Assembly: GCA_018889975.1 (NCBI GenBank)
Contig: CP076546.1
Coordinates: 1 to 64,000 of the forward strand
Direction: 5' to 3'
From: Bacillus sp. NP157
Lineage (GTDB): Bacteria > Pseudomonadota > Gammaproteobacteria > Xanthomonadales > Rhodanobacteraceae
Length of the DNA: 64,000 bases
Numbering within the stretch: position 1 is the first letter of the stretch; each line of letters starts with the position of its first letter. This document shows positions 4,118 to 8,555 of the stretch, in pieces. Both the position numbers and the translations under genes were made by a program. The notes under the pieces were generated by a model. It saw only the letters and a program-made list of their open reading frames with translations, was not told the origin of the DNA and ran no database searches.

Positions 4118-4792
4118 CTACCCAACGATCCCGCGCAACTCATCCAACTGCGCCGGGCTGCCGACGTTCCGCCAGAATCCGTCGAAACGCTCCCCCGACA
4201 GCCGCCCCGCGGCGATCGCCCGCCGGTACATCGGTGCGAGCTTGAACACCCCCGGCGTCTCGCCCGCGACCATTTCCGGCCGGTACACCCCCACGTTGCC
4301 GAACGTCAGCCGTTGCGCGCCTGCGGGCGCCTCCGCGTCGTGCAGCAGCCCATCGGCCAGCGCGAAATCGCCGGCCGGGTGGAAATCCGGATTGGGCACC
4401 ATCACCAGGTGCGCCACGCCCGCCGGTTCCCGCGGTAGCGCCGCGTAGTCGATATCGCTCCAGATGTCCGCGCTGACCACGATGAACGGGTCGCTGCCGA
4501 GCAGGGGCAGCGCCTTCAGCATGCCGCCACCGGTTTCCAGTGGGGTCGGGCCTTCGTACGAATAACGCAGGCGCACGCCCCAGCGCGATCCGTCGCCGAG
4601 CACGTCGGCGAACTGGTCGGCCAGGTGCGAGGTGTTGATCGCGATGTAACGCACGTCGGCCGCGGCCAGCTTTTCGATGTGATGCACGATCAGCGGTTTG
4701 CCGTGCACTTCGAGCAATGGCTTGGGCGTGGCGTCGGTCAGTGGCCGCATCCGTTCGCCACGGCCGGCGGCCAGGATCAGCGCGTGCCTCAT
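4118..4792 (-). CDS. murU: N-acetylmuramate-1-phosphate uridylyltransferase MurU
   Basis: The 224-residue protein is a sugar-phosphate nucleotidyltransferase: ILAAGRGERMRPLTD followed by TPKPLLEVHGKPL is the nucleotide-binding signature, and VVSADIWSD carries the metal-binding aspartate. In the MurU family the enzyme joins UTP and MurNAc-1-phosphate to give UDP-MurNAc, recycling cell-wall sugar around the fosfomycin-sensitive de novo step. Its start overlaps the stop of the kinase gene at 4789 by four bases (ATGA), which fixes the start and shows translational coupling. The kinase partner is the main reason to prefer MurU over other nucleotidyltransferases. Confidence 0.88.
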   Translation of the reverse strand: MRHALILAAGRGERMRPLTDATPKPLLEVHGKPLIVHHIEKLAAADVRYIAINTSHLADQFADVLGDGSRWGVRLRYSYEGPTPLETGGGMLKALPLLGSDPFIVVSADIWSDIDYAALPREPAGVAHLVMVPNPDFHPAGDFALADGLLHDAEAPAGAQRLTFGNVGVYRPEMVAGETPGVFKLAPMYRRAIAAGRLSGERFDGFWRNVGSPAQLDELRGIVG

Positions 4793-5802
4793 GCCGCGGC
4801 CGGCACGCGGATGTCGCGATCGCCGATCTTCGCGACGATCAGGTCGGCCAGCGGTGCGACGTCGGCGTGGCGCCGCGCGATGTCGAGCACGTACTGCAGC
4901 ACGCGCGGCATGTCGTTTAGGTAGCCCGGCTTGCCGTCGCGGTAGTAGAGACGGCAGAACAGGCCGAGGATCTTCAGGTGGCGCTGCAGGCTGCACATGT
5001 CGAACCAGCGGCGGAAGCGATCGGTGTCGACGGTCTCGTCGAGCAGGCGTGCATCGAGCAGGCGCAGGCGATAGCCCTCCACCCAGCCTTCCACGCGCTC
5101 GTTGTCCCACGTGACGTAGGCATCGCGCAGCAGCGAGGCGAGGTCGTAGGTGATCGGCCCGGACATCGCACCCTGGAAGTCGATGACGCCCGGCGAGCGC
5201 TCGCTGGTGATCAGCAGGTTGCGGCTGTGGTAGTCGCGGTGCATGAATGCACGCGGCTGCTCCGCGATGGCATGCAGGATCGCACCGAACGCGCCCTCGA
5301 CGACGTCCCATTCCTCGCACTCGACGAACGCGCCAAGGTGCTTCTGCAGGAACCACGTCGGCATGATCTCCATTTCCATGACCTGCCACTCGCGATCGAA
5401 CGCGGACAGGCCACGGGTGTCGACCTGCTTCTGCATGCGCAACAGCGCGTCGAGGGCGTCGGCGTACAACGCATCGGCGCTGTCGTCGTTGAGCTCGGGC
5501 AGGTAGGTGCGCGTACCGAGGTCCTCGATCAGCAGGAAGCCCTGCTCGAGGTCGGCCACCATCACCGTGGGCGTGTGCAGGCCGGCGTCGTGCAGGCGTG
5601 CGCCGATCTCCACCCAGGGCGCGGGGTTTTCTTTTTCCGGCGGCGAGTCCATGACGATGACCGGCTGGCCGTCGACATAGCCGCGCCAGTAGCTGCGGAA
5701 GCTGGCGTCGGCCGAGGCCGGTTCGAGGGCCAGCGCGGCTTCGCCGGTGGCATGGCGTGCCCACGCAAGGCGGGCGGCGGAACGGTCGGGGGATGCGGTC
5801 AT
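4789..5802 (-). CDS. amgK: Anomeric MurNAc/GlcNAc kinase AmgK (aminoglycoside phosphotransferase fold)
   Basis: The 337-residue protein has an APH-type kinase fold: the catalytic loop HRDYHSRNLL and the metal-binding segment GVIDFQGAM are clear in the C-terminal half, with an N-terminal lobe ending in LLIEDLGTRTY. AmgK phosphorylates MurNAc (and GlcNAc) at the anomeric carbon so that MurU, encoded next and overlapping by four bases, can make UDP-MurNAc. It is transcribed away from the amine oxidase gene at 5951 across a 148-base divergent gap. The third enzyme of the route, the phosphatase MupP, is not in this window. Confidence 0.88.
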   Translation of the reverse strand: MTASPDRSAARLAWARHATGEAALALEPASADASFRSYWRGYVDGQPVIVMDSPPEKENPAPWVEIGARLHDAGLHTPTVMVADLEQGFLLIEDLGTRTYLPELNDDSADALYADALDALLRMQKQVDTRGLSAFDREWQVMEMEIMPTWFLQKHLGAFVECEEWDVVEGAFGAILHAIAEQPRAFMHRDYHSRNLLITSERSPGVIDFQGAMSGPITYDLASLLRDAYVTWDNERVEGWVEGYRLRLLDARLLDETVDTDRFRRWFDMCSLQRHLKILGLFCRLYYRDGKPGYLNDMPRVLQYVLDIARRHADVAPLADLIVAKIGDRDIRVPAAA

Positions 5803-5950: not shown

Positions 5951-7558
5951 ATGGGGAGCGAAGACCCGGTTGCGTCGTTGAGCCGACGCGATCTGTTGCG
6001 CATGATCGGCATCGCCGGTGGCGGTGCGCTGATGTACCAGGCGATGAACAACCTCGGCTTCGCGGCTGAGTCGACCTATCGCCGTCCGCCACCGTTGCAG
6101 GGCTCGGGCAAGGGCGGCACGGTATTGATCCTGGGTGCGGGCCTGGCCGGCCTCGTCGCGGCCTACGAGCTGGGCAAGGCGGGCTACAAGGTGCAGGTGC
6201 TCGAATACAACGCGCGCGCCGGCGGCCGTAACTGGACCCTGCGTGGCGGCGACACCTACACCGAACTCGGTGGCCACGAGCAGACCTGTCGCTTCGACAA
6301 GGGGCTCTATTTCAATCCGGGGCCGTGGCGCATCCCGTACCACCACACCGGCGTGCTCGATTACTGTCGCCAGTTCGGCGTGCAGCTCGAGCCGTTCGTG
6401 CAGGTCAACCACAACGCCTACATGCATAACCCGGACGCGTTCGGCGGCAAGCCGCAACGCCTTCGCGCCGTCCAGGCCGACTGGCATGGCGGCATCGCGG
6501 AATTGCTCGCGAAAGCCTCCGGCAAGGGGGCGCTGGACGACGCGGTGACGAAGGAAGATCGCGAGATCCTGCTCGAATCGCTGCGTCAGTTCGGCGGACT
6601 GGACAGCGAATTCCGCTACGTCGCCGGCAGTGCCAGCAGCGAACTGCGCGGGTATGCGAAGGATCCCTCCGGTGGCCCGGACGGCAAGCCCGCGTTCTCG
6701 CAGCCGGTCGGCGTGTCGGACATCCTGAAGTCGGGGCTGTGGAAGCAGCTCGCGATGAGTTCGATGTACGAATACCAGACCACGCTGATGCAACCCGTCG
6801 GTGGCATGGACGCGATCGGCAAGGCGTTCGTCCGCGAGATCGGGCCCAGCGTGATCCGCTACAACAGCAAGGTCACCGCCATCGCCCAGGACGATCGCGG
6901 CGTGACCGTGACTTACGAAGACACCGCCAAGCCCGGGCAGGTGCAGACGGCGAAGGCCGACTGGTGCGTGTGTACGATCCCGCTTTCGATCCTCAGCCAG
7001 ATCCCGACCCAGGTGTCGGCGGAGAAGGCGGCGGCGATCGCAGCGGTGTCGTATTTCGCCTCGGTCAAGGTCGGCCTGCAGTTCAAGCGACGCTTCTGGG
7101 AAGAAGACGACCGGATCTATGGTGGCATCAGCACCAGCGATACGCCGATCGCGATGATCGGGTATCCCAGCCACGGCATCGGTACGAAGAAGGGCGTGTT
7201 GCTCGGCGCTTATGCCTGGGTCGGCGATGCGTACGAGTTCACGGCGCTGGATCCGGCCGCGCGCATCGCCAAGGCCGTTGAGTTCGGTAGCCAGGTCCAT
7301 CCGCAGTACAAGGCGGAATTCGAGAACGGCATTGCCGTGGCCTGGCACCGCGTGCCGTCCACGCTGGGTTGCTTCGGCTGGTGGACCGAGAAGACGCGGC
7401 AGCAGCACTACGCCAACCTGTGTTCGCTGGATGGGCGCATCGTGCTGGCGGGCGAGCATGCCTCGTACCTGCCCGCATGGCAGGAAGGCGCGATCCTCTC
7501 GTCGCTGTCAGCGATCGACCGCCTGCACCGCAAGGCGGTGGCCGGGGGTGCGGCATGA
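5951..7558 (+). CDS. Tat-exported flavin-dependent amine oxidase
   Basis: The 535-residue protein starts with a twin-arginine signal, SRRDLLRMIGIAGGG at residues 11-25, so it should fold with its flavin before export. A dinucleotide-binding Rossmann motif, LILGAGLAGLVAAYELGK at about 59-76, is followed by the flavin-monooxygenase/amine-oxidase signature with GGRNWTLRGG, and a C-terminal FAD contact GEHASYLPAWQEGA. The fold fits the amine oxidase or L-amino-acid oxidase family; the substrate cannot be read from sequence. It heads an operon with a cytochrome c (four-base ATGA overlap) and a secreted RidA protein, which suggests electrons go to the cytochrome and imine products to RidA. The ATG at 5951 follows a purine-rich GAAGGGG. 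Confidence 0.85.
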   Translation: MGSEDPVASLSRRDLLRMIGIAGGGALMYQAMNNLGFAAESTYRRPPPLQGSGKGGTVLILGAGLAGLVAAYELGKAGYKVQVLEYNARAGGRNWTLRGGDTYTELGGHEQTCRFDKGLYFNPGPWRIPYHHTGVLDYCRQFGVQLEPFVQVNHNAYMHNPDAFGGKPQRLRAVQADWHGGIAELLAKASGKGALDDAVTKEDREILLESLRQFGGLDSEFRYVAGSASSELRGYAKDPSGGPDGKPAFSQPVGVSDILKSGLWKQLAMSSMYEYQTTLMQPVGGMDAIGKAFVREIGPSVIRYNSKVTAIAQDDRGVTVTYEDTAKPGQVQTAKADWCVCTIPLSILSQIPTQVSAEKAAAIAAVSYFASVKVGLQFKRRFWEEDDRIYGGISTSDTPIAMIGYPSHGIGTKKGVLLGAYAWVGDAYEFTALDPAARIAKAVEFGSQVHPQYKAEFENGIAVAWHRVPSTLGCFGWWTEKTRQQHYANLCSLDGRIVLAGEHASYLPAWQEGAILSSLSAIDRLHRKAVAGGAA

Positions 7559-7968
7559 AGCGCGTGCTGGCCGTGTTCCTTGCCGTGGCCGCCCTGCCTG
7601 CGTTCGCGCAGGGTAATGATGCGGCCTTCCTCACCCGCGCGCAGTTCAGCCATGCCACCGGCGAACAGATCTTCACCCACGTCTGCCAGGCATGCCACAT
7701 GCCCGACGCTAAGGGTGCCGTCGGCGCGGGCCACTATCCGGCGCTGGCGTCGAATCTCAAGCTCGCTTCGGCCGCGTATCCCGCGGTGATGGTGATGAAC
7801 GGGCGTGGTGGCATGCCGCCGTTCGCCATGTTCCTCAGCGATGCGCAGGTGGCCGACGTGGTCAACTACGTGCGCACCCACTTCGGCAACCACTACACCG
7901 ACGCGATCACCGCCGAACAGGTCAAAGCTTTCCGCCCGCCCCCGGACAAAGACGAGAACGCCCAATGA
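7555..7968 (+). CDS. Periplasmic c-type cytochrome
   Basis: The 137-residue protein has a Sec signal peptide (about 1-18, ending PAFAQG), one haem-binding CQACH, and a likely axial methionine in GRGGMPPF. It is a class I, single-haem cytochrome of a normal size. Its start overlaps the stop of the amine oxidase gene by four bases, and its stop overlaps the start of the RidA gene, so the three are translationally coupled. The simplest role is to take electrons from the exported flavoenzyme and pass them to the respiratory chain; this is inference from context. Confidence 0.9.
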   Translation: MKRVLAVFLAVAALPAFAQGNDAAFLTRAQFSHATGEQIFTHVCQACHMPDAKGAVGAGHYPALASNLKLASAAYPAVMVMNGRGGMPPFAMFLSDAQVADVVNYVRTHFGNHYTDAITAEQVKAFRPPPDKDENAQ

Positions 7969-8465
7969 CTAACCTACGCCGCTCCCTCGCCCTGGCCGCC
8001 GCCACCTGCCTGCTCGCCGCACCGGCGTTCGCCGCCGAGGTCGTGCGCCACAAGATCCCCAACAGCACCTTCCCGATCTCGGCCGCGGTAGAAGTGCCCG
8101 CGGGCAAGACCCTCGTCTTCCTGAGCGGTGCCGTCGCGCCCGTGGCCGATGCAAACGCGCCAAAGGATTCGCCGCAGGCCTATGGCGATACCAAGACCCA
8201 GACCGCCGGCGTGCTCACCTCGATCGAGAAGCAGCTCAAGGGCATGGGGCTGACGATGGGCGACGTGGTGAAGATGCAGGTCTTCCTCGTCGGCGACCCC
8301 GCCAAGGGCGGCAAGATGGATTTCGCCGGCTTCATGGCCGGCTACACCCAGTTCTTCGGTACGGCGCAGCAACCGAACCTGCCTTCGCGCAGCGCCTTTC
8401 AGGTCGCCGCACTGGCCAGTCCGAATTACCTGGTCGAGATCGAGGTCACTGCGGTCCGTCCCTGA
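7965..8465 (+). CDS. Secreted RidA/YjgF/Rid-family protein
   Basis: The 166-residue protein has a signal peptide (about 1-23, AAPAFAAE) in front of a Rid-family domain of about 130 residues. Typical elements include VFLSGAVAP, QTAGVLTSIEKQLKGMGLTMGDVVKMQVFLV in outline, and the ending RSAFQVAALASPNYLVEIEV with the arginine that binds the carboxylate of imine substrates in RidA. Most RidA proteins are cytosolic and hydrolyse reactive enamines or imines. An exported version in the same operon as an exported amine oxidase suggests clean-up of the oxidase's imine product in the periplasm. It overlaps the cytochrome gene by four bases. Confidence 0.87.
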   Translation: MTNLRRSLALAAATCLLAAPAFAAEVVRHKIPNSTFPISAAVEVPAGKTLVFLSGAVAPVADANAPKDSPQAYGDTKTQTAGVLTSIEKQLKGMGLTMGDVVKMQVFLVGDPAKGGKMDFAGFMAGYTQFFGTAQQPNLPSRSAFQVAALASPNYLVEIEVTAVRP

Positions 8466-8490
8466 AAAAAACCCGGCTTGCACGCCGGGT
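8464..8490 (-). terminator. Rho-independent terminator for the TonB-receptor gene
   Basis: A 7-bp stem (ACCCGGC at 8471-8477 with GCCGGGT at 8484-8490) has a six-base loop. On the minus strand it is followed by seven T residues (8470 down to 8464). Its orientation fits the minus-strand receptor gene, whose stop is at 8556, rather than the plus-strand ridA-like gene ending at 8465. Confidence 0.8.
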
Positions 8491-8555
8491 CGAGCAAAGC
8501 CTCGAAAGAGGGGAGATGCGCCGCGCGGTGGGAGGGCCACGCGGCGCGATTGCGA

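Follow-up and report, generated by a model that had tools for sequence, protein, structure and literature searches.

The lao-cccA-ridA cluster of Gluconacetobacter diazotrophicus PAL5 (GDI2456-2455-2454) was found by Tn5 mutagenesis in 2016 (PMC5053998). According to the excerpt of that report used here, lao was hit by two Tn5 insertions, after which IAA was no longer detectable and indolic compounds were down by approximately 96%, the lao mutants left tryptophan in the medium, and the route from tryptophan to indolepyruvate and IAA was found to depend on the operon. The Tn5 insertions in lao lowered the transcripts of all three genes in RT-qPCR, and complementation is not reported in the excerpt; hence, the published phenotype is that of the operon and not of each of its genes. 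It was suggested in the same work that the cytochrome and RidA assist the L-amino-acid oxidase (LAAO). Earlier ccm mutants of G. diazotrophicus, cited there, formed 5% of the wild-type IAA, and the cluster is stated to be conserved in Xanthomonas and Caulobacter (PMC5053998).

Other described systems share parts of this layout. NicA2/CycN and the Pnao dehydrogenases combine a Tat-exported flavin amine oxidoreductase with an operon-encoded, Sec-exported cytochrome c (PMC12224317, PMC12272882). Many Tat flavin amine oxidoreductases (FAOs) with an adjacent cytochrome c, from NicA2-related clades, are dehydrogenases, and the dihaem cytochromes of NicA2-like clade 1 reacted only modestly with their partners (PMC12224317); the words RidA and LAAO are absent from that paper. 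RidA and sometimes Rid3 genes are reported to cluster with genes of FAD amine oxidases (PMC4433059), and PSPTO_3006 and PFL_1385, both classed as Rid3, hydrolyse imines made by snake LAAO in vitro (PMC5619798). In Chlamydomonas, LAO1 with LAO2/RidA likewise joins an extracytoplasmic LAAO to a Rid protein and leads from tryptophan to IAA; this system is eukaryotic, however, it makes H2O2, and no cytochrome partner is mentioned in the excerpt of the source (PMC10805672). The same publication, which describes this periplasmic algal LAAO with its RidA protein, also cites lao-cccA-ridA.

The window (the whole stretch of 64,000 nucleotides that was analysed) carries, on the plus strand, three genes which ORFs and Pfam matches place in the same order as in the lao-cccA-ridA cluster: lao (5951..7558; 535 aa), a cccA-like cytochrome gene (7555..7968; 137 aa) and a rid gene (7965..8465; 166 aa). 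As claimed in the initial annotation of this DNA, the genes overlap by four bases each, both junctions being ATGA stop-start overlaps on that strand (7555..7558 and 7965..7968); the lao stop also lies inside an ATGA in L002-L022 and in many other loci. The window operon is a known kind of system. It shares with the G. diazotrophicus cluster the adjacent genes, a Tat LAAO (533 aa there), a cytochrome c and a RidA-family protein, as well as R. opacus LAAO as the reference enzyme and the proposed roles, the likeness of the window lao to GDI2456 being drawn through the published description of the latter. The differences are that the window copy resides in a Luteibacter-like genome, of another class, and that the third protein, called RidA there, is typed as Rid3 here (PMC5053998). 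The window operon also has the layout of the FAO cytochrome c dehydrogenases, a Tat signal plus an adjacent cytochrome c, but NicA2 and Pnao belong to another branch of the superfamily, whereas the window pairs an LAAO-type active site with a Rid partner. PSPTO_3006 and PFL_1385 (9bka, 9bkc) have the Rid3 subtype in common with the window, and near-identical proteins stand behind LAAO genes (PMC5619798); those LAAO loci, however, are without the cytochrome, and the PSPTO_3006 type is without a signal peptide as well. The system had been presented as little described, which does not hold: the same cluster with the same hypothesis, mutants and RT-qPCR data has been published (PMC5053998), and biochemical work has established, in NicA2/Pnao-related branches, Tat flavin amine dehydrogenases that use cytochrome c (PMC12224317). 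Both the anatomy and the idea of the operon are therefore already in print (PMC5053998, PMC10805672, PMC12224317). A literature search found no study in which an LAAO was assayed together with its cognate cytochrome, nor the Rid3 typing, acceptor exchange and Rid signal loss of lao operons.

The longest lao ORF starts at a GTG (5747); ATG 5951 was chosen instead, since this is where relatives begin to align, and the twin-arginine motif comes after it. A search for sigma-70-like promoters detected no site upstream of the operon and one on the minus strand inside it. Divergent from the operon lie AmgK-like and MurU cell-wall recycling genes (4118-5802, minus strand), of which the MurU gene scores above its curated cut-off and the AmgK-like gene below its own. 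The convergent ORF downstream resembles a TonB-dependent receptor by eye and has no NCBIfam match at 1e-10. A terminator-like hairpin of 8 pairs with a T tail on the minus strand (8470..8491), located between the operon and this ORF, may serve the latter; it is a weak candidate, since the search gave two terminator-like sites where shuffled sequence gives 1.4 on average. The same genome encodes TatC and proteins for the assembly of cytochrome c.

The lao product matches Pfam Amino_oxidase (5.6e-52), and its N-terminus, SLSRRDLLRMIGIAGGGALMYQAM, reads by eye as a twin-arginine signal with SRRDLL followed by a hydrophobic stretch, the RR being invariant in 19/19 aligned sequences. In seven other LAAOs (L036, L139, L141, L144, L145, L147, L151) the Tat-like motif has KR in place of RR; the named loci among them are from Sphingomonadales or unclassified Pseudomonadota. 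The best PDB match of the lao protein is the R. opacus LAAO (2jae, 3.5e-86), followed by ancestral and snake-type (vertebrate-type) LAAOs, and no NicA2 or nicotine oxidoreductase chain is named among the 60 best of its 102 PDB matches. On this ranking the first reading, a generic amine oxidase, was dropped; the amine oxidase of the initial annotation is to be corrected to an L-amino-acid oxidase homologue. Residues R127 and Y421 align, as counted by hand, with 2jae chain residues 83 and 370, which we take to be Arg84 and Tyr371 in the numbering of R. opacus LAAO, and K373 aligns with a lysine common to the LAAOs in that PDB alignment. All three residues are invariant in 19/19 diverse aligned LAAO sequences and presumably represent the active-site positions of known LAAOs, the Arg and Tyr binding the carboxylate. 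With LAAOs nearest among the solved structures and the putative carboxylate-binding Arg/Tyr kept, the flavoenzyme is, as judged from its sequence, a homologue of L-amino-acid oxidases, and it would be expected to yield an imino acid, the substrate of Rid proteins.

The second gene encodes an exported monohaem class I cytochrome c (Pfam Cytochrome_CBB3, 6e-13) with one CQACH haem site, and the Met of its GGMPPF motif is presumably the axial ligand, by resemblance. Its N-terminus, MKRVLAVFLAVAALPAFAQ, reads by eye as a Sec-type signal with an AxA motif. This cytochrome would be the electron acceptor of the lao enzyme.

The third protein (Pfam Ribonuc_L-PSP, 4.9e-17) starts with MTNLRRSLALAAATCLLAAPAFAAE, again a Sec-type signal with AxA as read by eye, so that the N-termini agree with the twin-arginine signal of the flavoenzyme and the Sec signal of the Rid protein proposed at the outset. 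Its two best PDB matches are the Rid3 chains PSPTO3006 and PFL1385 (9bka, 9bkc). It has R142 at the position of RidA Arg105, I38 at that of Tyr17, and Glu at both 158 and 160. Rid3 proteins are marked by Ile replacing Tyr17, with the equivalents of Arg105 and Glu120 kept (PMC4433059). Counting that of the window, 114 operon Rids were compared: R142 and E158 are each kept in 114/114 and the Ile at the Rid3 position in 112/114. The protein had been introduced as RidA. The assignment to the Rid family is borne out, and the substrate-binding arginine, whose absence would have told against the proposal, is present; by its best PDB matches and by I38, where RidA has Tyr17 (or Phe), the predicted subtype is Rid3 and not RidA. 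It is likely an imine hydrolase. Five other Rid-domain proteins are encoded in the window genome, one of which is RidA-like, carries GPYSQG and is without a signal (G000:C1:4449774-4450121). In L034 and L174 the Rid N-terminus contains a lipobox-like LTGC, and these two proteins are perhaps membrane-anchored lipoproteins.

To place the operon among its relatives, 151 LAAO loci were scanned, and 126 non-redundant LAAOs at least 43% identical over more than 450 residues were taken as close relatives. The cytochrome gene is next downstream in 124/126 of these, and cytochrome followed by Rid in 77/126, with L113, the contig of which stops 771 bases downstream, counted among those without adjacent Rid. 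The exceptions without a cytochrome downstream are L057, which has Rid and cytochrome upstream instead, and L117, the sole one of the 126 without a detected cytochrome. The L057 enzyme is a second LAAO copy of its genome (G211), in the order Rid-cytochrome-LAAO. In a search of 61 genomes of relatives, 45 match lao at E ≤ 0.001, many of them weakly; there are 25 places with an LAAO at least 63% identical, three second copies were left out, and all 22 places examined, the window's own included, keep the three-gene order, which goes beyond chance. The initial proposal of an exported oxidation unit in one operon with a dedicated cytochrome is upheld. The LAAO of G003, of the same genus code as the window genome, and that of the Luteibacter jiangsuensis locus L076 are identical, and the window genome very likely belongs to Luteibacter in the broad sense.

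An even sample of the phylum gave an LAAO at E ≤ 1e-60 in 27/398 genomes. In 197 genomes of the family, LAAO was found in 58, Rid3 in 49 and both in 46 (Fisher p 6e-30, a guide only, as the genomes are not independent). Coordinates were compared in 11 of the 46 genomes, and in five of them (G485, G523, G534, G553, G579) Rid3 lies elsewhere; a Rid3 match is absent from 8/54 close-LAAO genomes of the sample, one of the eight having a partial LAAO, and three genomes have Rid3 without an LAAO match. Eight unlinked or LAAO-less Rid3 proteins were examined: each has a signal-like stretch at its start, and the 7-7.5 kb around their genes contain no LAAO or cytochrome of the lao-operon kind. Among the best 80 of 580 confirmed named loci (six of which repeat unnamed ones), the cytochrome is present in 79/80 and an adjacent Rid in 43/80. 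Within these 80, Xanthomonas has both in 6/6, Rhodospirillales have the cytochrome in 6/6 and an adjacent Rid in 0/6, and the one Caulobacterales locus has the cytochrome and no adjacent Rid. In the Lysobacterales, the cytochrome is found in 18/18 of these best-80 loci and an adjacent Rid in 14/18; even within Luteibacter, the adjacent Rid is missing in L. rhizovicinus (L082). Three Acetobacterales loci, with LAAOs about 60% identical to that of the window, have the cytochrome in 3/3 and an adjacent Rid in 1/3. The co-occurrence of the genes in relatives, whose absence would have told against the initial proposal, is seen, but adjacency of the Rid is not general. What is new here is that the cytochrome is nearly constant beside close LAAOs, that Rid adjacency is patchy, and that the Rid is sometimes encoded elsewhere in the genome; new as well are the more distant LAAOs with Rid3 and either a dihaem cytochrome or none, and the clade with signal-less Rids, both described below.

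LAAO copies are also carried by 37 plasmid records. An annotated cytochrome is next to the LAAO in 5/5 of those examined, and an annotated RidA-family gene follows it in 2/5 (Comamonas, Sulfitobacter; not Rhizobium, Mesorhizobium or Dinoroseobacter, with an incomplete gene table). On pDSHI02 of Dinoroseobacter shibae (L217; 3664-14232, one strand), LAAO and cytochrome are accompanied by a GMC oxidoreductase, a gluconate-dehydrogenase-like subunit, two c-type cytochromes, coxB, ctaD and an assembly gene, the last three preceding the LAAO-cytochrome pair on the same strand. This respiratory block is carried on a plasmid and includes terminal oxidase genes of its own; it has no adjacent Rid, and such terminal-oxidase genes stand beside no other LAAO locus compared. 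Of this block, the D. shibae dihaem cytochrome alone was matched elsewhere, at L048, L050 and L051.

Beyond the close relatives, eleven full-length LAAOs of 34-41% identity are without the monohaem cytochrome, and an adjacent Rid3 is kept in 8/11; LAAO matches more distant than these have neither partner. In three of the eight (L048, L050, L051) a dihaem cytochrome between LAAO and Rid3 replaces the monohaem one. Across 169 non-redundant LAAO rows, Rid is adjacent in 80/129 with a monohaem cytochrome, in 3/3 with a dihaem one and in 31/37 with none. A tree of these rows (FastTree, long branches flagged) gave 4 changes of acceptor type, 27 of Rid adjacency and 1 for the loss of the Rid signal, this single change resting on an analyst-assigned label for 12 rows. 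A strict three-gene unit was rejected, Rid adjacency being patchy (77/126; 27 changes) and acceptor type having 4 changes only.

In a Pseudomonas-like genus, LAAO is present in 27/119 genomes, and in 4/274 of a class-wide sample with the same query. Sixteen loci of this genus (L176-L191) have Tat-like LAAOs without a cytochrome, together with Rids that bear a signal; hence export does not require this acceptor. The Rids of five of them (L186-L190) are 88-93% identical to PFL_1385, and Rids 84.8-95.5% identical to PSPTO_3006 stand behind the LAAOs of L053, L056, L192-L194 and L196-L200, and also by the split LAAO L202/L203, so that proteins near-identical to each of the two assayed Rid3 proteins are encoded next to LAAO genes. 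Broken-looking LAAO genes occur in this genus, in two frames in G990 (L202/L203) and with an in-frame stop in L186 and L187, the adjoining Rid being still open. Rid3 is signal-less in L053, L056 and L192-L201 (11 genomes), of which L195 and L201 are only 68-69% identical to PSPTO_3006. On the Rid side the separation is clean: an uncharged hydrophobic N-terminal stretch scores at least 1.65 in 101 of the 114 adjacent Rids and at most 0.96 in 13, namely the 12 of this one clade and L116, where the Rid match is split over two frames. At least three charges in the 22-residue Tat stretch of the LAAO were counted in 9/12 partners of signal-less Rids versus 3/156 others (168 of 169 LAAOs parsed; of the three other charged ones, two, L093 and L149, seem to have been misplaced by the script). 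Neither mean hydrophobicity of the Tat stretch, which does not differ between the 12 and the 156, nor the longest uncharged run separates these LAAOs from the rest. The extra charges in the old Tat signal are thus only suggestive of a switch of compartment on the LAAO side; loss of the Rid signal is one event at most, and the partner LAAOs may be exported all the same.

Gene order, signal-like N-termini, family membership, conserved residues and co-occurrence are established for the window operon; from these we infer its substrate, the cytochrome as acceptor and the terminal oxidase. It is read, with a probability of about three in four, as a periplasmic L-amino-acid oxidation unit with its own cytochrome acceptor and a Rid3 protein clearing the imine. 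The Tat-exported, FAD-loaded LAAO would turn L-amino acids, plausibly tryptophan and further neutral amino acids, into 2-imino acids. Its reduced flavin would give up its electrons chiefly to the co-encoded cytochrome c, and from there they would enter the respiratory chain, so that the enzyme would act as a dehydrogenase and not as an H2O2-making oxidase. The co-exported Rid3 would speed the hydrolysis of the imino acids to 2-keto acids and ammonium at the site of production.

The step to the cytochrome is where a competing explanation fares best: a true periplasmic LAAO could use O2 and make H2O2, with an antimicrobial role or one in keto-acid decarboxylation, the cytochrome either scavenging peroxide or radicals or providing a minor route. 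The best-matched solved relatives are indeed named oxidases, the wider family includes cytochrome-free Tat LAAO-Rid3 pairs, and FAOs with a Tat signal and no cytochrome reacted fast with O2; but dehydrogenase behaviour was predicted more strongly by an adjacent cytochrome (PMC12224317), and the cytochrome adjoins nearly every LAAO of the clade, so that this explanation is considered unlikely. Less likely still is a role of Rid3 other than imine hydrolysis, as a subunit or chaperone of the LAAO, its adjacency being structural. A precedent, cited in PMC5053998, is the periplasmic LAAO complex of Chlamydomonas, in which a RidA-type protein is a non-catalytic subunit, but the catalytic Arg and a Glu are kept in all operon Rids, which, unlike an obligate subunit, are often non-adjacent or not found. 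A NicA2-like dehydrogenase of a non-amino-acid amine (biogenic amine or alkaloid) would follow the same gene logic of Tat flavoenzyme plus cytochrome c, but is highly improbable for an enzyme nearest to LAAOs with the invariant Arg/Tyr of presumed carboxylate role, given also that Rid3 proteins act on imino acids (PMC5619798) and that tryptophan stays in the medium of G. diazotrophicus lao mutants (PMC5053998).

Taking the periplasmic amino acid oxidation unit together with its relatives, we lean slightly towards a widespread class of respiratory L-amino-acid dehydrogenases, in which LAAO and Rid3 are combined with exchanged acceptors (monohaem c, dihaem c or none), once with terminal oxidase genes of their own, and in which the Rid would follow the compartment of the enzyme. 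If the LAAO reduces its cytochrome, many "flavin monoamine oxidase" annotations in Pseudomonadota would stand for periplasmic amino acid respiration, with the release of keto acids and ammonium and, where tryptophan is the substrate, of indolepyruvate, a precursor of auxin. The cytochrome-using dehydrogenases would then extend from nicotine-type amines to amino acids, and the Rid3 proteins, active in vitro, would gain a likely physiological job.
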